From contig JALRME010000087.1 in the NCBI GenBank assembly GCA_026120035.1, forward strand, positions 1 to 32,719: DNA of 32,719 nucleotides. The letters run 5' to 3'. Positions 2,067 through 32,515 of the stretch are shown here, one piece after another. Each line of letters starts with the position of its first letter. The first letter of the stretch is position 1. Origin of the DNA: Coleophoma eucalyptorum (Eukaryota > Ascomycota > Leotiomycetes > Helotiales > Dermateaceae). Below the pieces are notes generated by a model. That model saw nothing but the letters and a program-made list of their open reading frames with translations, was not told the DNA's origin and did not search any database. The translations under genes were made by a program, and so were the position numbers.

Positions 2067-3928
2067 ACGTGTGGCACAAGCGAATGGCCACCCCAAGCGA
2101 ATGGCCAGGTAAAGTAAAAAAACCCTACTTTTTATCTTATACTATTATTTTCTTAACAACCAACTATGGAATCTTCTTCGAATGAAAGCCGTACGATCCT
2201 TGCCCTTCAGGCTCTTAAAAATGACCCTAGTCTTACAGTTAAAAAGGCGTCTGAGATATATAACGCGCCTCGTACAACCCTAAGACGTCGTCTAGCTGGA
2301 AAACCTGCCCAAGCAAATATAACTATCAAATCACGAAAGCTTTCAGATTTAGAAGAGGAAACTATTATTCAAAGGGTACTTAAGCTAGAGTCCCAAGGGT
2401 TTCCCGTACGAATTAGTAGTGTTGAAGATATGGCAAATTTACTACGTCGCGAACGTGACGCGTCACCAGTTGGGAAGAATTGGGCTGAAAACTTTATACG
2501 ACGACAACCAGAGCTTAAGACACAAAAAATGCGTTCGTACGATAATCAGAGGGCATTATGTGAGGATCCAGATATAATTGGGAATTGGTTCAGGCTTGTA
2601 GCCAATTTTATAGCCAAATTTGGGATACGCGTCGAGGATATATACAACTTTGACGAAACCGGGTTTTTAATGGGCATTCTTGGGACTACTACTGTAGTGA
2701 CCAGCTCAGATCGTACGACCAAGCCTAAACTAGTCCAGCCTGGTAATCGAGAATGGGTTACAGTAATTCAGAGTATTAATTCATCGGGCTGGGCTATTCC
2801 GCCTTTCCTGGTTTTCAAAGGCAAATGGCATCTCGCCTCCTGGTATAAAAAAGAGCAATTTCCGTACGGTTGGAGAGCTGCTGTCTCTGAAAATGGCTGG
2901 ACAACAAATGAAGTCACTCTAGAATGGCTTAAGCACTTTGAGAAGTTTACTCGTACGAAGACAGTAGGCAAATACCGTCTCCTAGTCCTAGATGGCCATG
3001 AAAGTCACCTCTCAGTCGAATTTGAGGAACACTGTCGTACGAATAACATTCTTACACTCTGTATGCCTGCTCATTCATCTCATCTACTACAGCCTTTAGA
3101 TGTAGGGTGTTTTGCGCCTTTAAAGAAAGCATATAGCCGACAAATTGAGAATCTCGTACGGAGCCGAATTACCTATATTAGCAAAGAAGCTTTTATACCT
3201 GCATTTGTAGAAGCATTCAAAGCTACTATGACTAAAGCAAACATCCAGGGAGGTTTCAGGGGTGCTGGACTTGTACCGTACGACCCAGAGGTAGTTATAT
3301 CTCAGCTGGATATTAAGTTATTTACTCCGACACCTGAAAATTCTCGTCCGACAAGCTCCTATTCCTGGGTGTCTAAAACCCCACAAACTACAAAGGACGC
3401 AAGCTCTCAGACAACTCTGATTAAGAAAAGGATCGTACGACATCAGAGTAGCTCTCCAACTCCTATTTTGGATGCTCTAGACCTATTTGCTAAAGGTACA
3501 GCCAAAGTTATGCAAGAAAATATACTTTTGAGAGCAGAGCTTGAAAGGGTTCAACGGGCTAATAATGAACTAAGCCGTCGCCGCCGTACGAAGCGGAAGT
3601 TACTCCAGGAAGGAGGAACCCTAGATCTACAAGAGGTCCAAGAGTTGGAGACACAGACTAAAGTTCAAAGCCAAATTCGTACGGAAGAAGGCCAAAACAG
3701 AGGAAGGAAAAGACAGGGCGAATCACATGATCGGCGCTGTGGAGGTTGTGGACAAACTGGTCATAATAAACGAACCTGCCAGGCTAGTAGAGCTGCTTCG
3801 TACGATTCAGATGATATATAGCTTTTGTAATTTAGAGTTTTAGTTATAAATTTATTTGTAGTTTTATAGTAGAGAATTACTTTGACCTGGCCATTCGTTT
3901 GGGGTGGCCATTCGCTTGTGCCACACGT
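2067..3928 (+). mobile_element. Complete Fot1/pogo-type DNA transposon (pogo-1)
   Basis: A 1862-bp element with terminal inverted repeats of 44 bp at 2067-2110 and 3885-3928, differing at one position, flanked by TA at 2065-2066 and 3929-3930 (the expected pogo/Fot1 target duplication). Each terminus starts ACGTGTGGCACAAGCGAATG and carries two copies of AAGCGAATGGCCA about 17 bp apart, a likely transposase-binding pair. The single transposase gene is intact, so the element looks autonomous and recent. It contains 13 CGTACG palindromes, spaced 84-215 bp apart. Confidence 0.95.
2166..3821 (+). CDS. Fot1/pogo transposase (DDE_1 superfamily) with zinc knuckle
   Basis: Intact 551-residue transposase that would cut and paste pogo-1. 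N-terminal psq-type helix-turn-helix (about residues 8-45: ALKNDPSLTVKKASEIYNAP), then a CENP-B/Tc5-type DNA-binding region (about 60-125, ending NFIRRQPELKTQ). The DDE_1 catalytic core follows: Asp163 in YNFDETGF, Asp276 in VLDGHESH and Asp312 in QPLDVG, with the last two 36 residues apart as in pogo/Fot1. A charged coiled-coil-like stretch (about 440-490) precedes a CCHC knuckle, CGGCGQTGHNKRTC, at 525-538. The start at 2166 matches the beginning of the HTH homology. The coding DNA holds all 13 CGTACG sites in three codon phases, read as Arg-Thr, Val-Arg or Tyr-Asp/Tyr-Gly. No stop or frameshift is seen. Confidence 0.95.
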   Translation: MESSSNESRTILALQALKNDPSLTVKKASEIYNAPRTTLRRRLAGKPAQANITIKSRKLSDLEEETIIQRVLKLESQGFPVRISSVEDMANLLRRERDASPVGKNWAENFIRRQPELKTQKMRSYDNQRALCEDPDIIGNWFRLVANFIAKFGIRVEDIYNFDETGFLMGILGTTTVVTSSDRTTKPKLVQPGNREWVTVIQSINSSGWAIPPFLVFKGKWHLASWYKKEQFPYGWRAAVSENGWTTNEVTLEWLKHFEKFTRTKTVGKYRLLVLDGHESHLSVEFEEHCRTNNILTLCMPAHSSHLLQPLDVGCFAPLKKAYSRQIENLVRSRITYISKEAFIPAFVEAFKATMTKANIQGGFRGAGLVPYDPEVVISQLDIKLFTPTPENSRPTSSYSWVSKTPQTTKDASSQTTLIKKRIVRHQSSSPTPILDALDLFAKGTAKVMQENILLRAELERVQRANNELSRRRRTKRKLLQEGGTLDLQEVQELETQTKVQSQIRTEEGQNRGRKRQGESHDRRCGGCGQTGHNKRTCQASRAASYDSDDI

Positions 3929-3930
3929 TA

Positions 3931-4403
3931 CCTCTTATTTCAACTGTAATAGACAGGTCAAAATGGTAAGGTAATAATGTAGATGATTCTTCTAAGTGAG
4001 TGTGATGGAGGTCTTATAAATACTCTTATTGAGTATCGATTAGATCTCCACAGATATAGGGCTTGCATCCGAGTGCAACCACGGGAACAAGCAAGTGGTA
4101 TAACGATATTCCAAGTATATGCACATATAGGTGGTGTAGCGATATACCACCACATGCACGTGTTATAACGATGTTACGTCACGTGCAGGTGGTATATCGA
4201 TGTTCCAACATTATAACTTAGTAACTTACTTAAGTAAAATACAAAACAGCACTTCCAACCTTTTTATGGACCAAGTTTGCCTCTATGCTTCAGAAGTGTT
4301 TTATTGGAGATCCAACTCCTAGCGTACTGCCCATTATGGGGCTGTGCCTTATTCCTGAACGGGAACATTTTCTGAGGCGTTGAGTTAAAGATACACAGCC
4401 CAA
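3931..4403. other. Region between pogo-1 and the esterase remnant
   Basis: No gene recognised. It contains the tandem/inverted repeat annotated at 4095-4206. The remainder is AT-rich unique-looking sequence. Confidence 0.5.
4095..4206. repeat. Degenerate 29-36 bp tandem repeat with an internal inverted repeat
   Basis: Four related units start near 4095, 4131, 4160 and 4189, each beginning GTG(G/T)T(A/G)TA(A/G/T)CGAT (for example GTGGTATAACGATATTCC). Spacing is 36, 29 and 29 bp. Units 2 to 4 also form an inverted repeat: 4140-4162 pairs with 4180-4199 (CGATATACCACC...GCACGTG against CACGTGCAGGTGGTATATCG), so the locus could fold into a hairpin. Confidence 0.7.
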
Positions 4404-4738
4404 ATGCAAGCATATACATATGATTCGCCGAGCTCTCTTGGGAGTTCCGATTACCCTATATTTCCGTTACTCCTTACCCACCACTTCCCAACATCACGGC
4501 AATGCAAAAGGAAAGCTATGCCATGCAAGCGACATGGGCCTCCTTCGTTTCTACAGAGTCACCAAATTATTATGGACTGGACTGGGTTCCTTATTGGCCC
4601 ACATATGCTAACGGAAGCAAAAATTTGGTCTTCAACGCCACTCTCACTGACGTGTTGAACTTGCACCTAGAAGACGACACCTTTCGTTCCGAGGGTATCG
4701 CGTGGATGAATGATAAGTGGCCACTTTTTGACCAGTAG
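4404..4738 (+). pseudogene. Carboxylesterase type B, 3' remnant
   Basis: The frame at 4502-4738 reads like the C-terminus of a fungal carboxylesterase/cholinesterase-family protein: QATWASFVSTESPNYYG, then WVPYWPTY, then NLVFNATLTDVLNLHLEDDT, and FRSEGIAWMND before the stop. In the family this is the last helix-rich segment after the catalytic His, so nothing catalytic remains. Overlapping frames from about 4404 may hold the preceding part (LYFRYSLPTT) in another phase, which implies an indel. No upstream esterase body is present, so the rest was lost or never copied here. The assignment rests on a pattern I recognise from the family, without an alignment. Confidence 0.5.
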
Positions 4739-4959
4739 CAAAAATGTCTTCGTCTGCTCCAATGGGGTGATAGTGACTATACAATATATGTAGCTGGATC
4801 GCCTCCCTGTCATTCATTAGATCCGCACAACTGCTCCGTTGCACACTCCCCTCTTTAATTACCTACCCTTGGCAAATGTGCCATATACGAATGGGCCAAC
4901 ACACCCACAGAAATATAACTGTCTTATTTGCGGTAATAATATCTTTTTACTTAAGTATA

Positions 4960-6778
4960 ACGTGGTTTATCAGGACCTTGTCAATATCAGGACCTCATTA
5001 CCCTTCTAACTTTAACACGCGTTTTTTCAACAACTACTAATGTCAGTTCAAACCCAAGAAGCACGAATTGTCCTAGCTATCGAGGCTATTCGAACAACCA
5101 AAAATCTTAACCCTTCTACTGCCGCGAGAATCTACAACGTTCCGTACACTTCTTGACAGAATGAACGGCCGAACCACTATCCGCGAACGTCGGCCAGGAA
5201 ATACCAAATTGACCAGTTTAGAAGAAGATGTGATTGTTCCTAACATACTTGATATGGATGGAAGAGGGTTTGCCCCCCGGTTGGCTGGTGTAGAAGATAT
5301 AGCGAATTTCATCCTGGAATCGCGAGGAGGAGGACGCGTTGGCAAGCTCTGGGCTCATCGATTTGTACAACGACAACAAGCGCTCAAGACACGTTTAACC
5401 TCGTTTACGATTTCCAAAGGGCCTTGTGCGAAGATCCTGAGCTAATTGGAAGCTGATTTCGACTAGTGGAAAATATGAGGGCAAAATATGGTGTTTAGGA
5501 TTGCGATTTCTATAACTTTGGCGAGACAGGGTTTATGATGGGTGTGATATGTCCAGCAATGGTGGTTACACGCGCAGATCGACGTGGCAGAGGGAAAGCA
5601 ATTCAGCCTGGCAATCGAGAATGGGCTACAGCAATTGCTTGTATTATTGGCGAAGGCTGGAACGTTCCTCCATTTTTAGTAGTTCAAGGGAAAAATCATC
5701 TTGCAAATTGGTACACCAAGAGCAACTTGCCACACGACTGGGTGATCAAAACTACTAGCAATGGCTGGACTAACAATGAAACGGGTCTGGAATGGCTTCT
5801 GCACTTCGATAAACGTACCAAAGCTCGAGCAAAGGGCCTATATCGAATGTTGGTCCTTGATGGGCATGAAAGCCACAATCCGGCCGAATTTTAAGAGTAT
5901 TGCAAAATCCACAACATTATAACTCTTGGATTACCCGCAAACTCTTCTCACATTACCCAGCCACTTGACGTTGGATGTTTTAGTGTTTTGAAGCGGGCGT
6001 ACGGTTGGGAAATCGAGATTTTTATTAAGGCTCATATCAACCATATCACCAAGGTCGAGTTCTTCTTAGCTTTCAAAGCAGCGTATTTGGAGTCAATGAC
6101 AACTGATAATGCAAAGGCTGGGTTCCGTGGGGCTGGCTTAATACTTTTTGATCCTCAGGCCGTGATTTTGAAGCTAGATGTCAAGTTGCGGACTCCTACG
6201 ACTACTGGACCCCCTTCTGCCAATTCTGATCCTTGGGTTTCTCAGACGCCTCACAACCCTACTGACGCCCTTTCACAGACAACTCTTGTTAAGAATCGGA
6301 TTGCACGCCATCAAGGAAGCTCTCCAACACCGATTTTTCAAACAGTCGCTACGTTGGCAAAAGATACAGAAATATTAGCTCACCAAAATACTCTTTTGAT
6401 AGCTGAGAACAGAACACTCTGGGCCGCAAACGAAGCCCTTAGCAAACGCCGTAGGGCTAAAAAGAACCGTATCCGCCAAGGAGGTGCACTTACTGTAGAG
6501 GATGCACATGATATTATGGCTCAAAAAGAGGTGGATGAGCAGCTTGACGCGACGAGCGTGCTGAGAAGGGTAGTCGAAAGGAGGGGCAATTGAGCGGACG
6601 ACATTGTGGCACTTGTGGAAAAGCTGGTCACAATGCGAGAAGTTGTAAAATACCTGCAGATATATCTAGTTCATCAGAGTCCGAGTAATACAAGTTAATT
6701 TTATATGTTGTGGTTGCTTAATGACGCTGGAAAGTAGTAGGGTTTAAAAGAAATTGACGAGGTCCTGACAAACCACGT
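4960..6778 (+). mobile_element. Inactive Fot1/pogo-type transposon (pogo-2)
   Basis: A 1819-bp element bounded by TA at 4958-4959 and 6779-6780. The ends are inverted repeats (ACGTGGTTTATCAGGACCT at the left; the right end reads AGGTCCTGACAAACCACGT). At the left end ATCAGGACCT occurs twice, near 4968 and 4985, echoing the paired subterminal motif of pogo-1 with a different sequence. Its termini and protein differ clearly from pogo-1, so it is a separate subfamily. It has only one CGTACG (5998), without the extended flanks. Confidence 0.9.
5040..6688 (+). pseudogene. Broken pogo-2 transposase
   Basis: Homologous to the pogo-1 transposase along its whole length but carrying several lesions. 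The frame opens at 5040 (MSVQTQEARIVLAIEAI, psq-type HTH) and meets a frameshift and TGA near 5153. It resumes at about 5161 (CENP-B-like region to RLTSF near 5404) and shifts again. The first catalytic motif reads NFGETGF at about 5512-5532 instead of NFDETGF, so the first Asp has become Gly. The next part (about 5535-5891) keeps PGNREW and LVLDGHESH and ends in TAA at 5892; a further part (5988-6593) covers the C-terminal domain. The CCHC knuckle (CGTCGKAGHNARSC, about 6605-6650) lies in yet another frame. Non-functional. Confidence 0.9.
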
Positions 6779-6780
6779 TA

Positions 6781-7228
6781 CTTGGTTTTGAACATTTTAA
6801 TTCAATATAGTACATATTCAGTCCAATTCAAGTGCACACTTCTATTTGGATTACATCAAATATCTTCGACAATTTCAAAATTTCAAAAAGAGCCAAAAAT
6901 TGTTACTACCCTCCGCAGCTATCTATCGGCTCATTCCAATGCCTCTATCGTCATGCTTCGAACCTCTGAGCTTTCTCTTTCGAAGTTTGCTGCTTCCGCT
7001 GCCGTAATCAATGGTGCTCTTGGCTCTATTTCTTTCTTTAAAACTTCGAGATGTAGCCTTGTCTCAAACTTCGGATCGCATTACAGTAATCCGGTAATCC
7101 GACTCCAGTTTCCCCGCTCGGAGCTTTGATTTTCCGAGAATTGCTTACATTTCGTGACAGGACGACTGTCTTACGAAATAGTTAAAAGTAGGTTTCTGGA
7201 AGCTTCGTAATTCAGGGTCGATCATCAT
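6781..7228. other. Intergenic; no gene supported
   Basis: An open frame at 6782-7129 begins at the pogo-2 boundary and has no recognisable motif, so I regard it as chance. Nothing else is seen. Confidence 0.4.
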
Positions 7229-9559: not shown

Positions 9560-9813
9560 TGCTTCTGCCAGTATAAGCACAGTTTTATGAATGATGATAG
9601 CTTGAGAGACACGGCGCTATATATTTAAGGACAAAGGCAAAATGGCAGCGGGTACATATTGAGTCTTTATAAATCGGGTCTGGGTACGGTATGGAAAGTC
9701 CCTTCTTCTTCTACGTGTTTCTCTTCTGTTGACTCACAACCCAGGACAGCAATCTCCCCTTCCTGATGTCCCTACTACTACTACTGTACTAAGGGTCGAC
9801 GTTTTCGGGTCGG
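9560..9813. other. Short gap after the HNH gene
   Basis: Presumed HNH 3' untranslated region and unremarkable sequence; a (CTA)n-like CTACTACTACTACTG run lies at about 9773-9787. Confidence 0.4.
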
Positions 9814-10213: not shown

Positions 10214-10456
10214 TGTAAAAACTTGCCCTACTTAGTTGGATTATCCAGTATCAGTCACGTGACCCTATGACCAACATAAGCGAGTATGGACCCAGGAAGC
10301 ATATAAGAGGGACATAACGTGGAAATTGGTTTCTTTCTCTGTTTCTTCTTATCTTTTTTGTGTCCTTCGTACGAGACCTATAGGATTCAGTCAATATAAG
10401 GTTATTGTGCTCCCAAACACCTCTATCCTGCCTTTGATCAAACTTGTGTCCTTACA
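10214..10456 (+). mobile_element. Solo LTR, copy 1
   Basis: It begins TGTAAAAACTTG and ends GTGTCCTTACA, the TG...CA ends of an LTR. From about 10260 to 10456 it matches the reverse complement of 20831-21070 closely, including AGCATATAAGAGGGACAT (a TATA-like box at 10300), a CT-rich stretch and GCTCCCAAACACCTCTATCC. It is shorter than copy 2 in its left third. No convincing 5-bp duplication flanks it (TAAAT and ATTCC), so it may be rearranged. It contains a YCGTACGR site at 10367. Confidence 0.7.
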
Positions 10457-10691
10457 ATTCCATGCACTTGGCGTTATAGTGTTGCATATGATATGTCGTA
10501 CGATATAGCTGCAGCTCGAACACTATTAATATAGCCTTGTTTGATTGCTTGTATAGCTAGAAGAAGACGACCTTCTTTATTAGAAGGTAAAGCTTGATTT
10601 GGTGGTAGCATTATAGGTAAGGTGTGATGGTAGCGTTGACGGGTTTTCGTGTTTCACTCGCTTGTGTGTCTCATTCGCTTGTGAAATACGT
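10457..10691 (+). mobile_element. Pogo-type remnant: 3' end only
   Basis: The segment 10654-10691 (CACTCGCTTGTG, then CATTCGCTTGTG, ending ATACGT followed by TA at 10692-10693) has the same plan as the right ends of pogo-1 and pogo-3: two CRYTCGCTT motifs in reverse orientation and terminal ACGT next to TA. No matching left end or transposase is seen, so this is a relic or a short non-autonomous derivative. It contains one YCGTACGR at 10495 and a small hairpin (ACCTTCT/AGAAGGT). Confidence 0.55.
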
Positions 10692-10693
10692 TA

Positions 10694-13172
10694 GCTAGTT
10701 TTCCAATCATCCCTTTCCTATGGCGCTAAGTCACTTAGAACATCTACCCTAATAATATACATACCGGTCAATTGATTTGTTCACAGGTGGCTGAGGTATG
10801 AAGATTTTGGTGCCACTGCTTCATTGTTGCCTGCTTTCTCAGTAGTCCCTCTTCATCGTTTGATTCTGACCAAAGATTTCCAATTTTGCTGAAATTTCGA
10901 AATAGAGCAATATTCTTCTATACCTAATGCCCTGGTTTCCTCGATTGATTCTTCTCATTCGTGGCTACGTGTTTTCGGGGAGAAACTCAGGGCTCGTCAG
11001 CTCTTTTTAATCACGGCAAACCAGACTTTATTGTATATATATATCGATCGGTGGCACAATTCCCTACTTCCTCTGCCTCTGGAATCACTTCTGAAACTCA
11101 CCCTGTCGGTTACTAAGCCTTTTTTGGCCTTCCACCTGTGAGACGCTTCAAAATTTGCATGTGCTACTGGCCGTTCCCATCGAGTTCTTTGGTTCGTTGT
11201 CTCTCTAGGCCCCTGTCAGCGAGAACTTGTGACCCTCGAGTACGTCTGATGATTTGATATGTACGGCAGTTATAACTTAACCATAAAGATAACAGCTCGC
11301 TTCAACTTGTTTATCATTTCAAGTCTTGATGTGAAGGATCTCAGAATCTTACTTTGACTTGCAACTCCGTTTCTTCGCGATGCGCAATCCTACTCCGATG
11401 CTACAAGCTACATACAGCTAACTAGCTTGTATATTCCTTTTCCTTCATCTTCGAACTCGACGCTAAATTTCTCCGCTATTCTTTTGATAGTCTCAGTTGA
11501 CATTTGTCCCATCACAATAACACATTCTCTTCCAGCCAATATCTTCTGAACTTCAATTGGCTTACCCGATGAAAGAATAAGCATAAGTTCAATGTCATCT
11601 AGAGTTATATCAAAAATACAATATCTTGTCGAGCTAGTCTGTACTTTTGCGTAGCCTAACGCTGTCCGTAATAGACTAGGAAATGCTTAGCGGGCAGCGA
11701 GGCAACAAGATAGCGACAGCAAGTGCCATTGTAAGCGCTGATCCGCGTGTAACGGCCGCCTACGCGCTCTAATATTACCAATGCCGGCTTGACTTTTTCG
11801 AATTTCAACGGGCCCTGTTCGCGAGACGTTGTGGTTCGAGAAAGGGATTATAATGTTGAAGCAAGGTTTGTCTAAGTTACTCAACATGTAAGTCACGATT
11901 AGTGCGGACCTCTTTCTGGGGAAAGGTGACGATTGTGCCAAACCAGTCAAATATCGGAAAGCCGGCACGCCAGAGACCTTTTGTGTGGTGGCGGTTAGTT
12001 AGTGGATCGATTCTACGCAAAAAGGTCAGCTTCAGAAGTCCACCAAGCCGATAACGTTCTGTGGGCTGTACATAGATCTATAAACCGGCGGCAGCGGAAT
12101 AAATGAACTTGATGCCTGTTATCACGTGATCGAGTTTATACCGGCGTTACTTGCCATACACTCAGATCTGCATTTCGATGCTGCGCCAACTCGTATTGAC
12201 TTAATATGTGGGGCTCTAACGGATAAAAATGATGTTTAGTTGCCACAGATCTACAGTAATGCATTGTAATACGAATTACAGAGTAAACTTTGCAGGAACT
12301 ACGCAACAATGTCAGCATTCAGCATTCAAATTGGGGGTTCGGTCACCACGCTTCATCCTGGCATTCTTTAATGTCAGCCTAGCTTATTTCTAAAGACCAT
12401 ACTTGATGATTTGCATCAGTAAAGATTGACCGGGATGTGCCAGTAAATTAGACGGATCTGTCAAAGTCCACTGATCGTTTGAGAAAGAGAACGTTAGGGG
12501 GCGGCTGGCATCTAGAGAAGGCTTATAGGTTATAGCACAAATGTCAGTCTAGGATGCCGCGATATACTTCCTTGATTCTACCAGAAAGGCAGCTTTGTCC
12601 CGGCTCCCGTGCCTTTATTCAGTGAAAACTATTGCTTTGAGAACAACCATATGTCCAAGATAAATATAGTTCAACTTCCCAAACAAAGACTCCAAGACAC
12701 TCGCATGACTGGAGCCTTTCAAGCATTCTAAGCAATCAATTCACCTCATGATGGACGGTCATAGAAAGGATCTTTGGAGGCTTTGTATCTTGTATCCTCT
12801 GCATGAAAATGGTAGTCAAAACCACCAGAGTTAAATGGTGGTTCAAGTTGTCCAAATGGAGGTTCACGTAGAGGCAGGTTGTTCTCGCAGTCTCGATCAT
12901 GTAGCGGGCATGATAAGTTGTCGGCATCTCATCCCCACTCTTGTATAAGTTTATTGTTAAATCCAAGGACACGCTTGGGGTTGGATAATAATAATAGCCT
13001 ATCTCTCCATGTTATCAGACCGGTAGAAGCTAGGCAGCTCGCCTTCCCCGACGAGGATTTACTGCTTTCTTCGAAGTTTTTATAAGAACGAAGATGTCCC
13101 CAAGCACTTCCTTGCCCCTACCCCGATTTCCACGAACAATCTTGCCCGAAGGTCAAGACTGTACTCGTCAAT
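10694..13172. other. 2.5 kb without a recognisable gene
   Basis: Open frames here are short and without motifs on either strand (for example 11687-11968 minus, 13080-13460 minus). I see no tRNA-like GTTCGANTCC box, no transposase motifs and no long repeats. It may be decayed sequence; the last few hundred bases are presumably the former promoter of the MFS gene. Confidence 0.5.
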
Positions 13173-20416: not shown

Positions 20417-21300
20417 ACGTGTTGCGTATATAGGCGGCATAAGCGAGTGGCGCACTCTACGAAACACTCTCTTATAAATCTCCAAGTAACTATATAACTA
20501 GAACTCCAAATAACTACTATAGTATATCATCTGAATCGTACGAAGTAGCTCTACTAGCCTGGTAGGTTCATTTATTATGACCAGTCTTTCCACAACCTCT
20601 ATAGTGTCGATTATATAATTTTCTTCGTCTTTTTATTCCTCTGTTTTGACCTTCTTCCTTATAAATCTAGGTCTTAACTTCATCTATAGCTTCTAGTTCT
20701 TAGATATCTTATAGATCTAGAGTTCCTCCTTCCTAAATTAACTTCCGTTTTGTATAACGACGACGGCTTAGTTCATTATTAGCCTTTTGGACCTTTTAAG
20801 CTCTATTCTTAAAAGTATAACTTCTTCTATTGTAAAGACACAGGTTTGATCAATGGCAGGATAGAGGTGTTTGGGAGCACAATAACCTTATATTGACTAT
20901 ATCCTATAGGTCTTGTAGGAAGGACACAAAAAAGATAAGAAAAGAAGAGGAGAAAGAAACCAATTTCCATGACATGTCCCTCTTATATGCTTATTGGGTC
21001 CGAAACCCCTCCGACTCTGCTCATACTCGCTTACGCATACTGTCTTGGGTCACATGACATGTATTTGGTCACATGACATATATCTGGATTCCCAATTGTC
21101 TATTCTGAGCAGGTCAGGTTCTTACATGTATAACCTTAGCTATACCTTTTGTAAATAGGTCTATAGCCTCTAAAATAGGAGTTAGAGAGCTATCCTAATA
21201 TCGTACGATCCTTTGTTTAATAAGAGTTGTTTGTGAACTAGCGTCCTTTATAGTTTATAGAGTTTTAGTGTAACGGTCGAAGTAGTAACCTCGTTAGAAG
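20417..21300 (-). mobile_element. Degenerate pogo-1-like copy, split by an LTR (pogo-4)
   Basis: The reverse complement of 20417-20830 matches the 3' end of pogo-1 (coiled coil, the zinc-knuckle codons, the stretch around TTCGTACGATTCAGATGATA, and a terminus with CCACTCGCTTATG). The reverse complement of 21132-21290 matches pogo-1 upstream of that (GGACGCTAGTTCACAAACAA and GGATCGTACGATATTAGGAT). The coding sense is ruined by many C-to-T and G-to-A differences from pogo-1, typical of RIP or CpG decay. For example, two CGTACG sites of pogo-1 read TATACA and TATAAG here, while two others survive (20538, 21202). The 5' half of the element is missing. Confidence 0.8.
20831..21126 (-). mobile_element. 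Solo LTR, copy 2, nested in pogo-4
   Basis: A 296-bp LTR inserted in the degenerate pogo copy. Its ends form the short inverted repeat TGTAA...TTACA. Flanks TCTAT (20826-20830) and TGTAT (21127-21131) are a 4/5-matching 5-bp target duplication, and both align to the same spot of pogo-1 near 3510. In its own orientation it has a TATA-like AGCATATAAGAGGGACAT and a CT-rich leader. It matches LTR copy 1 (10214-10456) in inverted orientation about 10.5 kb apart. No internal retroelement sequence remains. Confidence 0.8.
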
Positions 21301-22116: not shown

Positions 22117-23219
22117 GGACAGGGTTTATGATGGGTGTTATATTTGCAAGCATGGTAGTGACTACGTCAGAGGGCCGTAGTAGGGCAAAATTAACTCAGC
22201 CTGGCAACCGGGAATGGGATTCAGCACTTCCATTGTTATACGGAATCTCATACGAAAGGTGGATATAGGCTATTGATCCTTGATGGCCACGAAAGCCACC
22301 ACTCGATGGAATTTGAGTTATACTGTCAAGAGCATAAGATTATTACGCTCGGTATGCCTCCACATTCTTCTCATATCCTTCGGCCACTATACGTGGGCTG
22401 TTTTGGGCCATTGAAGCAAGCGTACGGCTGTCAAGTAGAGGGCTTGATGCGAGCTCATATTAACCATATAAGCAAGTTTGAGTTATTGTGTGGATTCCAA
22501 GATGCCTTCTTTACTTCTGTTACAGAAAAAAACATACGAGGTGGCTTTACTGGAGTTGGCCTGGTTCCGTACGACCCAGAGAGGGTGCTTTCTAAGCTCG
22601 ATGTACAGTTAAGGATCCCGACACCTCCTGGGCCACCTCCAGCTACATCCAATACTTGGATTTCTAGGATACCACACAATCCAATAGAGGCTGGTTCACA
22701 GACAACTATTATCAAGACTCGTATTTCTAATCATCAGAATAGCTTACCAACACCTTTACTAGATGCTATCGATCATTTTGCAAAGGGAGCGAAGGCAATA
22801 ATGCACGAGGTAGCCCTTCTTCGTAGCGAGGTCTCTGTACTACGTAGGGCAAATGAAGACTTAAGTAAACGTCGGGGGGCTCCAAAAACACGTATAAAGC
22901 TTGGAGGGGCCCTTAGTATATAAGATGCGAATGACCTACTAGATCAAAGGGATATAAATAAGCAGGTAGAGCAAGAAACACACCAGAATAGTAGTCGAAT
23001 TAGAGGGGCGCTTCCGAAGGTACGGTGTTGTGGTGTCTGTGGTAAGCCTGGCCATAATGCACGTACCTATCAAGAGGCTATAGAACCATCTGATTCAGCT
23101 ATTCCAGATGTATTTATAGCTAATTAGTAGTGTTGCTATTGTTAAATTGAATGTAAAAGTTATAGAGTTGTAGAAAGTGGCCCACTCGCTTATATGGCCC
23201 ACTCACTTATAAATCACGT
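22117..23219 (+). mobile_element. 5'-truncated pogo-type transposon (pogo-3)
   Basis: The right end is intact: two CCCACTCRCTTATA motifs at about 23180-23210 and terminal ACGT at 23216-23219, followed by TA. The left end and the N-terminal half of the transposase are missing, because sequence similarity starts abruptly at the GFMMG motif near 22119. An internal deletion joins PGNREW (about 22200) to a point just before LILDGHESH. It is closer to pogo-2 than to pogo-1 in the parts that can be compared. Confidence 0.85.
22119..23126 (+). pseudogene. Broken pogo-3 transposase
   Basis: The N-terminal DNA-binding domains and the first catalytic Asp are absent. An open segment, 22273-22923, holds the second catalytic motif (ILDGHESH), while the third has changed from the expected QPLDVG to RPLYVG, losing the Asp. 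The C-terminal region to GGALSI follows, then an in-frame TAA at 22921. The remaining frame reads to a damaged zinc knuckle, CGVCGKPGHNARTY, in which the last Cys is Tyr, and stops near 23126. Not functional. Confidence 0.85.
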
Positions 23220-23261: not shown

Positions 23262-26200
23262 TCAAATACCGAGTTGTTTTAACATCTCAGTGCAGAGATG
23301 CTGTATTGAAATGCCATCAAGAATCTTGAGAAGTGGGAAATCTATGTTCAGCTCACTAGCAATCCAGGACTTGATCTCCACTGCGATCAATGAATCCATC
23401 CCGAGGCGATTCAATCTCATATTGATGGAGACACCTTCCACAGGAAGCAGCAGCGACTGAGAAAATTGTTCGACAACATATGGAAGTAGAGACGCAATTG
23501 TCAACTGGCTCTGAGGAATACTCGACAGTTTTTGTCGTGCTTCGCCAGCTTCGGCGTTAGCCTCACTTTCGATCATGGCTGTCCTGTTCTCATCTACGTT
23601 GTAAAACGCAAAGAGTGGGTTTTTATGCCATCTAGGTTGGCCAACCTCGGCAATGGTCTTTGTAGTTGCCTTTTCTAAACCACTTATGATAACAGGGCTT
23701 TGTTCAGAGGTCGGCTGTCCAACTGTGATGGCCTCGAAAAATATGCTATGAAGCTCCTGCTCAGATAAGACAATGCAGTTAGACTTTCGCAAGTGATTTG
23801 TCGCATTGTCACACTGTGTAGTGAAGAATCCGACTCCTGAAACCATTCCAAGGTCGATGACAGACGCAGCCAGACCACGTTTGCGACGTTGGGCTGCAAT
23901 TGCCTTCATGGACCTAAAGAGAAAAGCCTATTAGCCAAGTATAACTTCAAGATGGAGAGCCTATACGAACATGCAAGCAGCACTATAATTTGACTGTCCT
24001 GGAATTCCAACTACCGATGCAACACTTGACATCATGATGAAAAAGTCCAAGTCGCGGGTTTCAAGGACTTCGTCAAGATTGATGCTTCCTAGGGTCTTGG
24101 GTCTCACAGTCTCCTCGAAATTAAAAACTGTCATATTCGAAAACAACCCATCACTCAATACCTAGTTCAAGTTCATCAGCTGCTATAAAATTGAAGGTTA
24201 GGGGCTTGATGATCTGAGCAACTTACCATTGCACCATTCAGAACACCGCCAATAGGTGGCAATGCCGATTCGAGATTGGCAATGCAATTCTCAAGCGCTG
24301 CTTTATCAGAAACATCGAGAGGGAAGACGGATTTGACGGAAACCGAAGCACGAAGTTCATTCATCCAAGCACAATCACTTCTTACGGTTCTGCTCATAAT
24401 AGCGAAGTGTTTTGCTCCTTGGGTGATCATTTCTCTGATCAACGATTGACCAAGAGTGCTTGTCATCCCAACCATGATATAAGTCTTGTTTGAAAAGAGC
24501 ATCCTTGCCCTTTGGCGTGGTAGAACTGCAACTTCGATCTTGTCCAGCCCAGTCCATTGAAAGATCGTCCTTCCAAACATGACACTGTCTCCATCGGACT
24601 TGTCTGATACATTTTGGACTTGGAGAATGCTTCCTGGATCACAATATGTCATCCATTTAAAATATTCGCTGATGTAATTTTTCAAGTCGGCCAGCATAGA
24701 AGGTATGGTATCTTGGTTCTGGAAAGAGCCAAACGATGGCACAGAGTAATAGCTGTCTAAGTTTCGATATTGACACGATTTCGGTAGCATCTCCTGTAAC
24801 TTTGGTCTCTGCCGTTGGCCTTGAAAGGCAAGTATATTGCAAGCTTTCAATGTTCATAAACATGCGAGACGAACTGCCGCAGTACACCTCAATGTCAGAT
24901 ATGAAACCCATAGCTTTCTTTTCCTTGGCAGGCACTTCACTTCCAATGTATGCGTGAATTGCGAGTGAGGGTTCGTATGACAAACCATATGCTGTCAATG
25001 GATCAATACGGATCTTGGATATAGCATTAGGCACAAAAGTGTGCCGTAATCTGCCATCACCGGTATGTGCAAAAGCTGCTAAAACGGCCTGGAAGCAGAC
25101 ATCGAGGAGGGCAGGATGAATAAGGTAATCAGTTGAAGGCATCACAACTTGGGGTAAAGCTGTAGCTGCAGCAAAATCAACACGTCGTTTTACTGATTCT
25201 AGTTTGAATGGTGCGTCGTATTTGAGTCCGATAGTTGCGAGATCTGCATAGAAGTGGTCTGCATCTACAGATTTTAGTGAAGCGGGCTCCTCTGGTTTTG
25301 GTGGGAAGATATCGACCGACAAAGATCCAAGTTGGAGATGAAAAGTAGCACTGAAAACCTCGGTGGGGCATTCGACAGTGCCAATCTTGCTTGAATAACA
25401 AGTAAATATGGCCGTTATCACATCATCCCCAGCTTCGGATTTGGTGATTGCAACTTTAGATATTATCTCCTCCTTGGAATCTTCTTCCAAAACGATTGCC
25501 CTTTTTATTGTGATATTGTCGACATCAATATAGGCAATTGGCTGATCTTGAGATACGACCAGGGCAGATTCGATGGCCATGACACAATATGTAGCTCCAG
25601 GGAGGACATATTGCCCCTGAACAACATGTCCACGAAGCCATGGTAATTCACTGAGCTGGAGAACGTTCCTCCACACCATTTCTACATCAGAGACCCGCGG
25701 CACGCGAGATCCTAAAAGGGTATGGAAACGGGGCCGGTCAAGAAACTCTCGGGACAACCGAGACTCTCGCCAAAAGAGACGGTCATGATCCCAGCTAAAC
25801 CTAGGGAGAGTCATAAGTGAGTAGGACTCTGGATTAACCGATCCCAGGAATGCCTCCCTATATTTGCGAAAGTTGATCGTGGAGCCAGTGTTTGCCCACA
25901 CAGCACCAAGAGCGTCAGATAGCCCTTTCTCCGATGGTATGTCGCGAGATAATACTCCTAAATAAGGTAATTTTCTTCTTAATTTTGCCTCGGTAATTTT
26001 GGTAGATGGACCTTTAAGAGCAGGGTGTGGTCCAACTTCAAGCACCATACTATATTCAAATGTGGATAGGGCCTTTTCGATTGCCTGAGAGAAATACACT
26101 GGCTTTACCATGTTGTCAATCCAGTATTGGACCCCTAGGCATGGATCGGACAAGAACGGCTTCCCTTGATTTCCTGGGACACTGGAGAACCAGGAACAAG

Positions 26201-27870
26201 ATGCATCTCCAGGGAGTACCTTAATATTAACCTCTTTGAGGAATTTCCCGTACACTTCGCCGCATGGGCCCATGTGCTCAGAATGATAAGCTTTATCGAC
26301 CTGAAGAATTCTTGCAAATACCTTGCTACTTGTCAGATGTTCATTCAGAGCCACGATTGCGTCCTTGTCACCAGATAAAGTACAGCTTTTGGGACCGTTA
26401 CAGGCGGCAACTGAAATGTAACAATCATTCTCCCTTGAATAATCATGACAGAGTGCCTCCGCATCTTTTTGACTTAATCCGACAGCCATCATGGCACCAG
26501 GTTGACCCTTGCGACCTTGGGAGTTATGTGTAGATTGCCCACGGTAGTATGCAATACGAATAGCATCTGATTCAGAGATGAAACCAGCAGCATATGCGGC
26601 GGCTATTTCTCCTGATGAATGGCCAACAACAGTATGAAGATGTGCTCCACTAGCACGGAGGATATTAACTAATCCAATTTGAATGGCTGTGCATGTTGGT
26701 TGTGATATCTCGGCTGTGTGCATGCTAGATTCCTAGCCCAGGGCGATTAGCTCACTTGAAAGCTTCCAGGACGGCGGCTGCGGTAATGCTTCTAGAGAAG
26801 CCTGCAAAGAATCAATGGTACGTGTGAACAGTGGACAGGTCTTGTACAATTCTCGTCCCATGCCTGCCCACTGAGCACCTTGTCCAGTAAAAACACCCAA
26901 AATATGAGTCGATGTTGTTTCAGTACCTATCTCTCCGCCAGGAATTGAACCGATAATCTCGAGATTACTTTCAATTTCTGCAATAAGCTCTACCGGGGTG
27001 CTGCCGGAAAAAGAAGCCTTTACACCCCAACAAGACCTTTTGGTTTGCATTTGCCAGCATAGATTATCGAGATCAATTCGTGGATTGTCTTTCAAGTACT
27101 GGGCAAAAGACTTGAGTTGGGTGCGTAGAGTTGTCTCCGAATGTGTAGAAAATAGTAATGGAGTCATGACCGTTACCTTATCAGCATTCGGCTTCGATTC
27201 TGATTCTATACCTTGAAAGCTCTCCAAGATAGCATGAGCGTTGGTCCCACCAAAGCCAAAATTATTGACACTACATCGAAGCGTCTGCTCTCGTCCGCTT
27301 GATGGCCAGGGTACTGATTTCGTTGGGACCTGCAATCTGGCAGTATGAGCTTTGACAGCAGGATTCATTGACCGGAAGTGCATGTTTGGGGGAATGGTGC
27401 GGTGTTGAAGAGCTAGAGCGGCTTTTAATACGCTTACAACTCCGGCACCACCCTCCAGGTGTCCAACTACGGTTTTCACCGACCCCACCCACAATTTTTC
27501 AGCATTCTTCTCGCTGGCAGTTTCGGCGGGGAAGAAGGCTAGTTTGATTGCCTCGGCTTCTGTGGGATCACCAGCAGGCGTTCCTTAAGGCAGTTTAATA
27601 TCTACTCTCTTTAGGCGATAAAAAGGGAGAACTATTTACCTGTGCCATGTGCCTCAAAATATTGACATCTATCTTCGTTATTGGTGCAATCTAATCCTGC
27701 TCTCTTGTAGGTTGATCGTATTAACTCTGCCTGAGCAACAGCGCTTAGTAGAGTGATGCCTGTAGTCCGACCATCTTGATTGACTCCGGTTTCTCTAACA
27801 ACGCATCGTATAACGTCTCCACTTGAAGTGGCATCTTTGACCTTCTTCAGAAGCAGTACGACAAATCCCT
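23262..27870 (-). pseudogene. Type I polyketide synthase, 5'-truncated and internally damaged
   Basis: Domain order on the minus strand is KS (C-terminal part), AT, DH, KR, ACP, as in fungal reducing synthases. KS starts at 27870 just after where the GEG motif should be, so about 230 residues with the active-site Cys are missing; EAHGTG (27645) and VVGHLEG remain. AT has GQGAQW (about 26890) and GHSSG (about 26620). DH has LRGHVVQGQYVLPGA and HPALLDVCFQA. KR has GMTSTLGQS and GQSNYSAA; ACP has GMDSL. Introns at 27584-27639, 24162-24226 and 23914-23970 join correctly. Lesions are an in-frame TAG at 26733-26735 in AT, and a frame change at 24660-24850, where only about 300 bp separate DH from KR, so any methyltransferase and enoylreductase domains are gone. 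There is no terminal thioesterase. Product unknown. Pogo-3 ends 41 bp from the stop, and the helicase element abuts the truncated KS. Confidence 0.85.
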
Positions 27871-27883
27871 AACACTATTATTC

Positions 27884-27970
27884 CCCATTTACAGTGTAAA
27901 TGGGTTTTTTCCCCATACAAAAAATGTCTGTGTGTAGTCTTGGCGTACAATCTCATTTACAGTGTAAATG
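27884..27970. repeat. Pair of palindromes at the element's left end
   Basis: Copy 1 (27884-27904) has perfect 10-bp arms, CCCATTTACA and TGTAAATGGG, around a single G. Copy 2 (27954-27970) has the 8-bp arms CATTTACA and TGTAAATG around the same G, centre to centre 68 bp. Between them ATGGG and CCCCAT face each other across TTTTTT. The ATG at 27968, the first codon of the long frame, falls inside copy 2. The layout suits a protein-binding or recombination site (inference). Confidence 0.8.
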
Positions 27971-30900
27971 GGTTCTAGGGTTAACTTTTATTTCCTTAAT
28001 TCTACTACTATTCGTACGAAGAAATATGTCAAATCATTCAGAGAATCAGGCTCAACCTATTCCCCAAATTTGAGTCATTTACTCTACTTAAATGTGGATT
28101 TTCAAGTACTGGTCTGTTTGGGCGACCACTGCCAATGTGTTGTGCGCCCGAAGGCAATTGTACGACACCTCCAAATCTACCATCAGACTCCAATTGAACT
28201 ACGCCAGCAGATTCAACAGTATATTCAGTTATTTCCCTATTCGTACGACCACTCGACAGTCCAGCTACCAAAGGATGGTTTATTCCCCCAACCGTATGTC
28301 CAGGTGGTAGATGGATTCCAATGTCACCAGTGCCCCTTTAAAACCCAGAACCGCGCTGTTGTCCGACAGCATGTAAATAAGGACCATAGGAAGCAGAGGG
28401 TCAAAGATCAAGATATCTTTACTTCCGTACGAATGCAATCATGGTTCAAAGGTAAGAAGCAGAGGTATTGGGTGGTAGATGAAAATGCTATACCATCTAC
28501 TATAGCTGCTACCCAGCCCGGCCCAGAATCCAAGGGCAGTCAAGCCCAAGGAATATCAGGTTTGATTTCCTCAGCCGGGCGGGTTAAATCAGCTACTAAT
28601 CAATAAACACCAGCTTCGTACGACAAGATGGAACGGGAGATCCAGCAGTGGATGAGCCAGGCTCAAGAGCGCCGGCTGACCCTGCTCGCCCAACCAGCCG
28701 CTGTAGAGCTGGATCCATGGCTGCGATATACCAAGTGGTATACCGTCCTCAACCAGTCTAAGCATGACCTCGTCCAAACCTCTACATACCTCCGGCTTCC
28801 AGACCCTATGGAATCCGGCTTACACCGGGTCGTACGGGCCTGGAAGCGTATCTTCGACCGGTGCTTGGATACACTAGAAGCTACCGACCACAAGGACACT
28901 TTGAAATGGTGGGGTTCGCCCCGGATTGAGGTTGCGAGCCAGCGGCCATTCGAGCTACCCCAGAGTTCCCGGACGCTAGCCCGGTACAGCGTCTTCTGGG
29001 AGCAATGCCTCTGTTACCTACTCCGTACGAGCCCCCCTGAATTGGATGGTGAGACAGAGACGGGGGTAAAGTTTACCCAGGAGCAGTGGGAATCCACTCA
29101 GAAAATCCAAGAACATCTGAAAATCCAGCCCCAGAATGATCCGTACAATGAGGAGGCGGACCAGGACCCCGAGCTTACAATAGAAGTTATGAATCTATGT
29201 CAATTGATTTTAGTACAAGACTGTAGTAGGATCCCCTTGTACGAATCACCGTTAATGCACTACCTAGCTGTCCAAGGAATTGACCCTAACGCTAAGGTAT
29301 TTCGGACTTCCTTCTCCTATACCCCAATTCTAGCTAGCATCTTATGGGTGGCTCGGCTCGTCTTGCTTGAGGTCGCCGTACCAGCTCAAGCATGGACTCG
29401 ACTAGGGCTCCGAGGCAAAGCAGACATCCCCTCTATCCCCGTACGAATCCATAAGATCCGGTCGAGGCACCTATGCGAGGGCTCGTTTGGTCCTACATCT
29501 AGTGTTCTTAGCCAGCTGGCGATGGGAAAGAAGGCTAATTCCATACATGAAAGACCATCCAATATCCACTGGTCTACCGACTCTAAGACCATCTACTTTG
29601 GAGGGATGCCAGTACCACTAAACAAGATCCGTACGATGGGCTTAGCTCTTACAAGTGAATGTCAGGAGCTACTCCAGGGACTAGCATTCGGCCAAGAGCT
29701 TCCTACCATCCAGCTGGACCAAGTGGTAGATAGTATGGCATGGAGTGGTGAATTCCGACAGTCTGACTATAGCTTCATCAGTAGTTCTAAGAACAGCCCA
29801 CAGCTTTGGGTCGGGTACTTCTACTTGCTTAAGCTCGCCCAAAAAGGCCATGGTCAGATGATTGACCATTCGTACGAAGACGCAAGGTGGATTGAAGGTA
29901 AAAAGCAGGCGTATCTCACCCAAGAAAGCCAGTTTTTAAAGAAGCTGATGGTACAACTTTATATTACCGGGGGCCAGCCGGCCCGAGGTCCAGAGCTAGG
30001 GTCGGTGAAAGTCAGTAATAGTGTCTACTCAGCTCGGAACCTCTGCGTTATCAACGGACGGATGTGCTTCTTAACAATGTACGATAAGTCACGAAAGCGT
30101 CGAGGGAATTCCGAGTATATCGTACGGTGCTTGCCCGACCTAGTTAGTTAGATCTTGGGCCAATACCTTGTCTTCGTCCGGCCATTTGCTTGAGTCCTAG
30201 ACGAAAGGTAAAGCGAGTTCTTATTTGTAGACAAACAAGGACTATGGGCTGGCGAGCAATTGAGCCGCGAGCTAGCTAAAGCTACCAATAAGTACCTCGG
30301 TGTTCGTCTGACGATAGTAGGGTGGAGGTACGTCGCTATTGGGATTTCCGTACAATGCTTGATGCAGTATAGTAAGGTGTGGGAAAAGGAGACTAAGTCG
30401 GACGACTAAGGGGAGGACGAGGCCGAGGACGAGGACGACGAAGAAGCAGAGGCTAAGATGAAGGACCATGTGCTCGTACGGCAGGCTGGGCATGGCCAGA
30501 GAGTCGCATAGGCCCACTATGCCATTGATGGGAATTTTCTCTATCGGCTTGGACCCCAGCTGATCTCAGCTTTTGAGCATGCATCTCTGGCATGGCACCA
30601 GCTCTTCAGGTGGGATGCTACGGGTGAGATTGACCGTACGAAGCCTCAGCATCGCCGGCAAGCTAGCCAACCACTAGAATCCCCTCAGGTAAAGAAGGAG
30701 CGGATTGGACCAGCCCCAACCAGCCAGCATCTTGCCCGTTCCAGGCGCGGGCCCGACCTGGGATCCGCGAAGGCCCGGCTAGGGCTCGTCCGGATCTTGG
30801 GTGCATCTGCCTAGCCTCGGTCGGAGGCACAGGCCCGGGCCCTCGAGCTGGTCTATCACCCTCCTCGGACGTCCCTGATTGTCCTCCCGACTAGCAGTGG

Positions 30901-32515
30901 CAAATCCATCCTCTTCTTCTCGGTCGCTGCGATAGTTGACCAACAGACGGTGGTTGTTGTAGTCCCCTTTCGAGCCTTGATTGACGATCTTGTCGTACGA
31001 GGATAAGAGCTTGGTCTCTATTATCACGAGTGACGGCCGGGTTCCACCTATAGCCTAGCTTAGTTGGTATTGGTTAGTACCGACCAGGCAGTCCAGCCCG
31101 AGTTCTTACACTGGGCTAAAGGACTCGAACTTTATAGTGAACTCGCCTACCTCTTCTTTGATGAAGGGCACGTAGCCTTGACCGACCGATCCTATCGTAC
31201 GAACCTACAGGAACTTTGGAAACTACGTTATCTGAACTATCTATTTACCGTGCTTACTGCTACGCTTATAGTTGATTTGGAGGAGAAGCTCTTAGAGGAG
31301 CTATTGATTCCTAATGCAAAAATCTTTCGCCGACCAACCGTACGGCCCAAGGTCAAGTACTAGGTTGTCGATAGTCAAGGACAGATACTATCAACCAAAG
31401 CCATCGAATATATCCAGCGGATTGGACGATTACTAGATCACAAGCGAGAGGTGGTATACGTACGAAGCTATAGCATAGGGGAGATGATCAGTGAGGAACT
31501 CGACTGTCCCTTCTATAAGGCTACTACTCAGGACAAGAGCTAGGTCTTGGATACATGGGCATATGGGCCGGGAGGCTGGATTGTTACCACCGGGGCATTA
31601 GGAACCGGGATCAATATCCCCGGAATCATCTATATTCTCCATGTCGACCGACCGTACGGACTCACCAGTTTTGTACAGCAGTCCGAACGAGGCGGACGGG
31701 ATAGCGAGGTAAGCGAATCCATCATCTTTGTTAACGTTACAAGCACCCAGCCATACTACCGACCGAGTCTGATGAGTGCATACTCGACCGAGAAGGCCGA
31801 TAAGCAGGCCTTGACCGAGTTCATACAGAGACTAGGTTGTCGGCGCTAGGTCCTCGGACGACATATGGATGGGCCTTAGGATAGCCAGGTTAGCTGCCGA
31901 GCTCAAGACTGGGTGTTGTATGACTTCTACCGGCGGCAGTAGTATCAAGAGAGGCTCCTCGCCAAGCTCGAGGCAGCATCTTCCGAAGACCTCCCGGCCT
32001 CGGCCTCGACGCCCGACCCGAACGAGGAGAGAAATGGTGTCTAGCTCATCCAGGAGACATCGTACGAAACCGAGCACCAAGCCGAGCAGATGGTCCGGGT
32101 CCTTCAACATCTCACCAAGTCCTGCTTCTTCTATTAGCTCCTCCTTCACCCCCTCGACTCGGGATCTAGAGAGGATCAGCCCAGCCATTCGTACGATGAA
32201 TGTCGTAAAGCCATACAGTATAGTTGTGGCCGTCAAGAATTCTTCCAGTGGGCTAAGGAGCTCAAGCTAAAGGCGGGGCATAACTGCTACAAATGTGGGT
32301 TATCGTAGACGTCTGCCGGTAGGTGGAGGATGGCAGCTCATGTGAGTATCCCTTGGTAGGTCTTTAGGGGATCTTCATCCTACACCAGCTTGGCTTTCTT
32401 GAGCGGATTGCTTTAGGGTTGGGATTCTCTAGATCGTACGAACAAGACATTTGGCTATAGATACAAAGAATGTCCGAGGGGAGAAGAAGCTACTACGAGA
32501 GTAACTAGACGATAG
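27968..32515 (+). pseudogene. Fused zinc-finger / tyrosine recombinase / RecQ-like helicase gene, nonsense-mutated
   Basis: One frame of about 1515 codons with no indel but 20 internal stops. Domains: two C2H2-like fingers of the DUF3505/OrsD type (about 28115-28190 and 28318-28385; FQCHQCPFKTQNRAVVRQH, then RMQSWFKGKKQRYWVVDE). A helical region at 28628-29930 follows. The tyrosine-recombinase signature is Arg in ARGPEL (29984), Lys in YDKS (30086), Arg in GWRYVAIGI (30326), His in AGHGQ (30491) and Tyr in HYAI (30518), the last two nine residues apart as in the family. RecQ motifs follow: LPTSSGKS (Lys 30902), FDEGH (31160), VLTATL, and QQSERGGRDSEVS (about 31676). A CYKCG knuckle is near 32290. 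Stops are 14 TAG, 4 TAA and 2 TGA, consistent with coding-strand C-to-T changes of Gln or Arg codons. 28628-30148 is stop-free. Not functional as it stands. Confidence 0.75.

Follow-up and report, generated by a model that had tools for sequence, protein, structure and literature searches.

The nearest known system to the one described here is, by our comparison, VANC of Arabidopsis, with a short motif of degenerate pyrimidine (Y) ends that is dense in VANDAL elements and rare elsewhere. In the part of that report available to us the motif set of VANC6 is also found in an unrelated repeat, AT9TSD1, and the motifs, all of a single orientation, are mostly outside coding DNA and are spread by tandem repeats (PMC5735166). 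In a stretch of 32,719 nucleotides from the fungus Coleophoma eucalyptorum (contig JALRME010000087.1, positions 1 to 32,719; the window in what follows), the word YCGTACGR (R, purine) resembles the VANC targets, as far as that account goes, in being dense in its target elements, rare elsewhere and common to unrelated repeats, here a pogo-family DNA transposon (pogo-1) and an element that we assign from its sequence to the telomere-linked helicase (TLH) family. Unlike the VANC motifs it is a palindrome, dispersed through coding DNA in all phases (13/13 pogo-1 sites are in the open reading frame, ORF), and belongs to a different kingdom.

Other systems share single features with this one. CENP-B/Abp1, in its surveillance of the Tf2 transposons of Schizosaccharomyces pombe, is a sequence-specific DNA-binding protein acting on a transposon family, as is predicted here. 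The CENP-B box is longer than YCGTACGR and is not a palindrome; YCGTACGR, unlike the CENP-B/Tf2 case, tiles coding DNA in two families, where selection on the elements maintains it. En/Spm and Ac also carry a short word many times in one element, in the form of transposase-binding repeats that, unlike ours, are subterminal, clustered near the ends and specific to a single family, whose own transposase binds them. The MoIsw2 motifs of Magnaporthe oryzae are likewise fungal, palindromic and overlap transposable elements (TEs); in the portion of the paper to hand they are mainly intergenic, with few chromatin immunoprecipitation sequences holding more than one, and the likeness drawn here is one of description (PMC11481914). 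The TLH genes of Fusarium oxysporum are, from the part of the account available, helicase genes by telomere repeats at chromosome ends, in many copies and often truncated; location and copy number match our element, and that part mentions no internal word of the YCGTACGR kind (PMC12857005). A literature search on the CGTACG word, judged by title and start of the abstract and with subscription journals mostly outside it, gave no report in fungal elements, and a search of similarly partial coverage on evenly spaced palindromic motifs in elements found nothing similar. CGTACG is present in a table of oligonucleotides from systematic evolution of ligands by exponential enrichment, as far as that source was available (PMC4976313). 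Relatives in viral contigs were sought with two queries and none was found.

The first-pass annotation had placed 33 CGTACG hexamers in the two elements, 13 in pogo-1 and 20 in what it called a recombinase-helicase element; all of these positions proved correct on recount, as did the flanking pyrimidine and purine (32/33 sites) and the distribution of the pogo-1 sites over the three codon phases (6, 4 and 3). The window holds 41 CGTACG in total, the next 6-bp palindrome by count being TATATA with 21. The earlier survey of YCGTACGR is sound for the positions it lists and had missed six more (10368, 10497, 20319, 20537, 21202 and 22568), of which 20537 and 21202 lie in pogo-1-type fragments, 22568 in pogo-3 and 10368 in a 296-bp repeat, with 10497 and 20319 in no element assigned here. 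Two hexamers, at 5998 and 22421, had been described as breaking the flank rule on both sides; they do so on the 5' side and not on the 3' side, where both have G.

From second-order Markov expectation, pogo-1 should hold 0.71 CGTACG rather than 13 (P 1e-12) and the TLH element 1.19 rather than 20 (P 4e-18), and CGTACG is the top over-represented 6-mer in each. Synonymous-codon shuffles (3000 per ORF for pogo-1, TLH ORF1 and TLH ORF2) gave a mean of 0.80 and a maximum of 6 against 13 observed for pogo-1, and a mean of 0.59 and a maximum of 4 against 6 for TLH ORF2; for the short TLH ORF1 the observed 3 (mean 0.29) was equalled by the shuffle maximum. A near-intact TLH copy, L036, has 13 against a mean of 1.28 and a maximum of 6. 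No excess over codon-shuffled copies was one of two outcomes named beforehand as speaking against a function of the word, and pogo-1, TLH ORF2 and L036 instead exceed all shuffles. The other, a similar density in ordinary genes, was not seen in the genome-wide counts or in the six host-type ORF regions of the window, which in a total of 11.1 kb have no CGTACG, as the first-pass annotation had said of host-type genes. In the whole genome (45.26 Mb) there are 5235 CGTACG (1 per 8.6 kb) and 2103 YCGTACGR (1 per 21.5 kb). The first 1.195 Mb of contig C3 has 32 YCGTACGR listed, that is 1 per 37 kb, somewhat below the Markov expectation of 1 per 20–31 kb (from small samples), and dense clusters follow in its last 60 kb; along most of this contig the word is at or below chance frequency. 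CGTACG is absent from two arbitrarily picked 6-kb stretches and from 4.4 kb read of a Gypsy copy whose reverse-transcriptase frame is open over 841 aa. Pairs of YCGTACGR 223–253 bp apart number 76 genome-wide (20 for the reversed pattern) and pairs 108–138 bp apart number 50 (22 for the reversed pattern), 28 of the 50 beginning within a pogo or TLH match among the matches listed. Two YCGTACGR 138 bp apart also occur at each of six places outside the pogo and TLH matches listed (C7:488752, C8:799495, C16:711914, C19:276165, C26:446347 and C93:613), perhaps representing another family.

The constraint on the word was followed in an alignment of 14 TLH copies (of at least 50 matches, the window copy counted and short pieces left out), the other copies being 69–97% identical to that in the window. 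All 11 window sites from 29871 on, in the 3' half, are kept in each of the 3–6 copies reaching them, and the three less constant places (6/9, 6/8 and 4/7 copies) are in the middle (Table 1). In seven copies 70–76% identical to the window copy, 67/75 sites are kept compared with 40/159 hexamers that have two CpGs and are inert to repeat-induced point mutation (RIP), with the proviso that the copies are related and the cells are not independent. The comparison of L035 with L037 alone gives 18/19 sites kept and 13/53 controls (P 7e-8). Mismatches at offsets −1 to +6 number 5, 1, 5, 0, 0, 4, 1 and 7 of 75, and outside these eight bases 19–32 at −6 to −3, 11 at −2 (the base just left of the footprint) and 20–25 at +7 to +10 (25 at the base just right of it). 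All 12 mismatches at the two ends of the site are T-to-C or A-to-G transitions, by which Y stays Y and R stays R. The TLH footprint is a symmetric 8-bp YCGTACGR. Among codons of L037 whose amino acid is unchanged, the codon is identical in 36/37 cases where its third base falls in a site and in 131/213 cases for the same codons elsewhere, and the synonymous codons at sites are frozen in 6/6 comparisons (L037 and five other copies; P 1.8e-6 to 0.009). These codons are frozen past the need of the protein, and selection must therefore act on the DNA word itself.

In pogo the picture is one of turnover. The alignment comprises 30 loci (of at least 64 matches) and pogo-2, a contrast case without YCGTACGR; the row counts in Table 1 include the window copy and pogo-2. 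Four sites are old by this alignment (26/29, 25/29, 22/27 and 20/29 rows) and others are confined to one clade. The tree of 22 near-full copies (eight fragments and pogo-2 left out; 3–13 sites per copy) carries 17 site columns, compared with a mean of 0.57 and a maximum of 5 in 200 runs in which random sequence was evolved on the same tree. At four pogo-1 sites (2190, 2863, 3155 and 3678) the encoded amino acids differ from those of relatives without the site, although some of the differences in dead copies may be due to RIP. Synonymous codons at pogo sites are frozen in 6/8 comparisons (P < 0.05; P 0.06 and 0.15 in the other two), so that constraint on DNA at synonymous positions is strong in TLH and weaker in pogo. 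The pogo-1 protein permits 14 such words and 13 are present, and four control palindromes use 0/7 of their allowed positions; in L036 the word uses 12/15 and the controls 0/24. This comparison is partly circular, the allowed positions being in part a product of the sites. Counted by site column, the flank rule holds in 21/22 TLH and 17/19 pogo cases, and both families have the identical word with flanks little constrained past the eight bases. Codon or amino-acid preference as the cause is rejected on the use of all phases, the shuffles and the frozen synonymous sites.

Table 1 Elements and YCGTACGR sites in the window, with the number of aligned copies (TLH, 296-bp repeat) or rows (pogo) that have the word at each place
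Feature	Position	Strand	With YCGTACGR	Remarks
pogo-1, complete pogo-family DNA transposon	2065..3930	+		49-bp terminal inverted repeats, TA at both ends
pogo-1 transposase ORF, intact, 551 aa	2166..3821	+		DDE_1, HTH_Tnp_Tc5, HTH_psq; all 13 sites inside
pogo-1 site	2189..2196		4/26	only L005–L008 clade; SRT, relatives SQL/SRI and others
pogo-1 site	2404..2411		8/26	
pogo-1 site	2535..2542		20/29	
pogo-1 site	2711..2718		26/29	
pogo-1 site	2862..2869		4/30	only L005–L008 clade; PYG, relatives PAG/LAS and others
pogo-1 site	2951..2958		17/30	
pogo-1 site	3035..3042		14/29	
pogo-1 site	3154..3161		1/29	window copy only; LVR, relatives mostly IIR
pogo-1 site	3276..3283		25/29	conserved PYD
pogo-1 site	3433..3440		22/27	
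pogo-1 site	3584..3591		11/27	7 more rows CGTACG with 5' A
pogo-1 site	3677..3684		4/27	only L005–L008 clade; IRTE, relatives ISIE/ISTE and others
pogo-1 site	3798..3805		14/27	
pogo-2 (contrast case)	4958..6780	+		identity with pogo-1 about 55%, terminal repeats unlike those of pogo-1
Site in partial 296-bp repeat copy	10367..10374		15/21	covering copies, same position
Degraded pogo-1-type fragment	20467..21268	-		matches 20467–20826 and 21127–21268; sites 20537, 21202
Site in pogo-3 fragment	22567..22574			
TLH family copy	27868..32626	+		OrsD zinc-finger domain, middle without Pfam match, RecQ-type helicase
TLH ORF1	27968..28606	+		OrsD domain (PF12013)
TLH site	28012..28019		14/14	
TLH site	28241..28248		14/14	
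TLH site	28425..28432		13/14	
TLH site	28616..28623		10/14	
TLH ORF2, 507 aa	28628..30151	+		recombinase resemblance by eye only, not confirmed
TLH site	28830..28837		11/12	
TLH site	29023..29030		9/10	tenth copy cut off there
TLH place	29141..29148		6/9	window reads CCGTACAA (word lost or lacking)
TLH site	29439..29446		6/8	
TLH site	29629..29636		4/7	
TLH site	29870..29877		6/6	
TLH site	30120..30127		5/5	
TLH site	30474..30481		5/5	
TLH site	30634..30641		4/4	
TLH site	30993..31000		4/4	
TLH site	31195..31202		4/4	
TLH site	31338..31345		4/4	
TLH CGTACG	31458..31465			ACGTACGA, the element's one CGTACG breaking the flank rule (5' A); telomere array of L038 joined at CGTAC/G
TLH site	31652..31659		3/3	
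TLH site	32060..32067		3/3	
TLH site	32189..32196		3/3	
TLH site	32434..32441		3/3	

The assignment of the second element to TLH follows from its RecQ-type helicase and OrsD domains together with the presence of copies at TTAGGG arrays. Stop codons interrupt the frame of the window copy past 30151, and a Pfam search with ORF2 gave no match at E up to 1. Many of the at least 50 genomic matches are near contig ends, and 13 of the 50 are confined to the final 100 bases, which are not part of the element. The near-intact copy L036 (C100:1812-6571) is 97% identical to that of the window and has 7 stops in its main frame compared with 27; its best relatives of solved structure are Bloom helicase (2e-15) and RecQ (1e-14), and it has DEAD and Helicase_C domains. 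Thus the helicase half of the earlier label, recombinase-helicase mobile element, stands, while the recombinase half is unconfirmed and the element is not shown to be a transposon. TTAGGG arrays are found at seven TLH loci, equal to six chromosome ends; they are joined directly to TLH sequence at four ends, about 75 bp off at L040 and about 1.2 kb past the aligned part at L037. At the end of C3 (L038) the array starts CGTAC/TTTAGGG (the slash marks the junction) inside the TLH CGTACG equivalent to 31459, and at the end of C86 (L043) it starts CCGTAC/TTAGGG, where the aligned relatives have no site. Healing of telomeres at the sites was rejected, with one of six junctions exact, and is kept as a lead only. 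Upstream of the element, at 23262–27494, is a disrupted polyketide synthase gene, scattered over several frames, with acyltransferase and dehydratase domains.

The terminal inverted repeat arms of pogo-1 (2065–2113 and 3882–3930) are 96% identical, and the element has the DDE transposase with tandem helix-turn-helix (HTH) domains and the TA-bounded terminal inverted repeats of the pogo superfamily (Tc1/mariner). Its intact ORF has a GC content of 0.43 and matches DDE_1 at 3.7e-34, and HTH_Tnp_Tc5 at 2.3e-4 and HTH_psq at 7.2e-4, both HTH domains being just below the Pfam cut-offs. At least 64 matching stretches were found in the genome, including pogo-1 itself and pieces of terminal repeat (40 of 284 candidates scored). 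The only CGTACG of pogo-2 is that at 5998, and it has no YCGTACGR. AAGCGARTG words are common to several pogo terminal repeats, and doubled in some (2065–2113, 3882–3930, 10649–10696, 20439–20456 and 23176–23193), and the terminus of pogo-2 is unlike these. The end of the window (32624–32719) is the terminal repeat of another pogo family, the same over 95–99 bp at at least 7 other places; copies of that family (L058, L061, L063 and L064) have 2–3 YCGTACGR in the parts read. The pogo-1-type fragment at 20467..21268 is split by the 296-bp repeat (20831–21126), which has a partial copy at 10288–10456. In some copies this repeat is flanked by 5-bp duplications (L027 GGGGT, L057 TTAAC, L068 CCTCT), and it may be a solo long terminal repeat. 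It was rejected as a third family keeping the site, since 15/21 is, by eye, no more than its identity of 77–98% gives.

A function at the level of DNA that is common to two unrelated elements, as first proposed from the positions of the word, is supported by the symmetric 8-bp footprint and the frozen synonymous positions in TLH. We consider it highly probable that YCGTACGR is a selected recognition site in duplex DNA and likely that what reads it is a protein. As the footprint is mirror-symmetric, occurs in every phase and is common to unrelated elements, this protein is predicted to be dimeric. The explanation we favour overall, if tentatively, is that the word is the recognition site of one DNA-binding factor along both families: a single sequence-specific factor, most likely a homodimer, would bind along the whole body of TLH genes and pogo-1-type transposons, so that no part of either element would be more than one or two nucleosomes away from bound factor. 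Since the elements themselves keep the word, binding most likely serves the elements, and the location of the sites over the whole body and not the ends speaks for an action along the length, on chromatin state or repeat recognition, rather than for a transposition signal. Bound factor might then make host repeat defence (RIP, heterochromatin, methylation) act less well on the element, an anti-silencing or shielding role whose logic would be comparable to that of VANC. That the word favours the elements against silencing is a plausible prediction, which we hold with a little more reserve than that of a common factor. The fullest form of the idea, that both families have converged on one host-borne address by point substitution, at some amino-acid cost, and that a dimeric factor coats and shields the element, is somewhat unlikely as a whole.

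A number of observations weigh against this explanation. Most of the copies examined are RIP-mutated, so any shield is incomplete, and the density of RIP around the sites is mixed: it is lower near TLH sites in 13/14 tests (P < 0.05 in 5) and higher near pogo sites in 10/12, and protection from RIP near sites was accordingly not accepted. Pogo sites are kept only modestly more often than RIP-inert controls, 61/130 compared with 70/240 from L005 and 43/70 compared with 56/119 from L014, so that in pogo the number of sites is kept up more than their place, and the pogo footprint is weak at the column level. Sampling of other transposon families is limited to a single Gypsy copy, pogo-2, pogo-3 and fragments. 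The gaps between sites (84–215 bp, mean 134, in pogo-1; 120–416 bp, mean 233, in TLH) are more even than random, with coefficients of variation of 0.27 rather than 0.89 and 0.37 rather than 0.93 (0/20000 random draws as even), and P is below 0.05 in 8/9 TLH and 14/16 pogo copies with at least 6 sites, these copies being related. When only protein-allowed positions are drawn, P is 0.36, 0.07 and 0.10 for evenness and 0.14, 0.009 and 0.05 for the minimum gap. As most of the significance is lost in this way we do not count even spacing as proof, and it may simply follow from which sites exist, with no signal of its own. Nucleosome or helical phasing was rejected, the best z scores (5.99 at 200 bp over 70 periods; 4.15 summed over the two elements at 10.2 bp over 21 periods) being, by our estimate, within what so many trials can give. 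The mean gaps are close to the lengths of perfect homology at which, in the part of the report available, RIP in Neurospora is triggered (as few as 155 bp) and becomes substantial (220 bp) (PMC4858203), a resemblance that is suggestive only.

The retention of the word can also be explained by a host surveillance factor, CENP-B/Abp1-like or linked to a remodeller, that reads the site and clusters or silences repeats; elements would keep the site because restraint or clustering spares the host, or because the factor is needed for replication or end maintenance. Pogo transposases are kin of CENP-B with the same type of DNA-binding architecture, the HTH_psq and HTH_Tnp_Tc5 arrangement seen, below cut-off, in pogo-1, and the silencing and clustering of Tf2 in S. 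pombe, in which CENP-B homologues take part, is a precedent. The sparseness of YCGTACGR along C3 is compatible with mild host avoidance, and the overlap of MoIsw2 palindromic motif sites with TEs offers a fungal precedent, from what is available of that paper (PMC11481914). If the word were nothing but a harmful silencing mark the elements should shed it, yet it is kept at synonymous positions and is present at new places in single clades, and we regard this explanation as unlikely. A DNA-methylation or hemimethylation maintenance site would account for the two symmetric CpGs and for the core mismatches in TLH, which are mostly transitions at the inner CpG (9/11 at offsets 1 and 4). It is improbable, as an 8-bp word with Y/R ends around a fixed TA centre is more than CpG methylation calls for, and the elements show no enrichment of the other two-CpG palindromes counted.

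We attach a similarly low probability to a site-specific nuclease or recombinase, possibly a TLH product, that would act at the site and drive exchange or end-healing between copies. A palindrome is typical of a homodimeric cutting site and the arrays of L038 and L043 begin at CGTAC; however, four of the six telomere junctions are elsewhere, the 5' flank of the CGTACG at 31459 is wrong, a gene with twenty cut sites would destroy itself, and pogo elements move via their terminal repeats. An action of the word in RNA, where it would affect how element transcripts are processed, exported, degraded or dimerised, would agree with all 13 pogo-1 sites being in the ORF and hence in the transcript, but a single-strand RNA motif needs no palindrome, and here the constraint is symmetric about the dyad with both ends degenerate alike, which leaves this quite improbable. 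Least probable of all is that the word has no function, either outliving decay because it is RIP-inert or coming from a CGTACG-rich donor genome. CGTACG, with neither CpA nor TpG, does offer RIP no target, and RIP has mutated many copies, but inertness cannot make an excess in an intact ORF or produce clade-specific sites, and other RIP-inert hexamers are kept far less in TLH, if only modestly less in pogo; RIP-inertness as the sole cause is therefore rejected for TLH and, weakly, for pogo.

If a common factor does bind YCGTACGR to the benefit of the elements, one short word would mark selfish DNA in this fungus, DNA transposon and subtelomeric helicase family alike, and selection on it would be strong enough to freeze synonymous codons and apparently also to change amino acids. 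This would mean that conservation within transposon genes is not all at the level of the protein, a caution in reading it. The word would also give a sequence handle for finding a factor that works where fungal genome defence meets its targets, and sequence-specific anti-silencing would extend from the non-coding repeats of plants to coding DNA, in the form of a shared anti-defence code embedded in the coding sequence.

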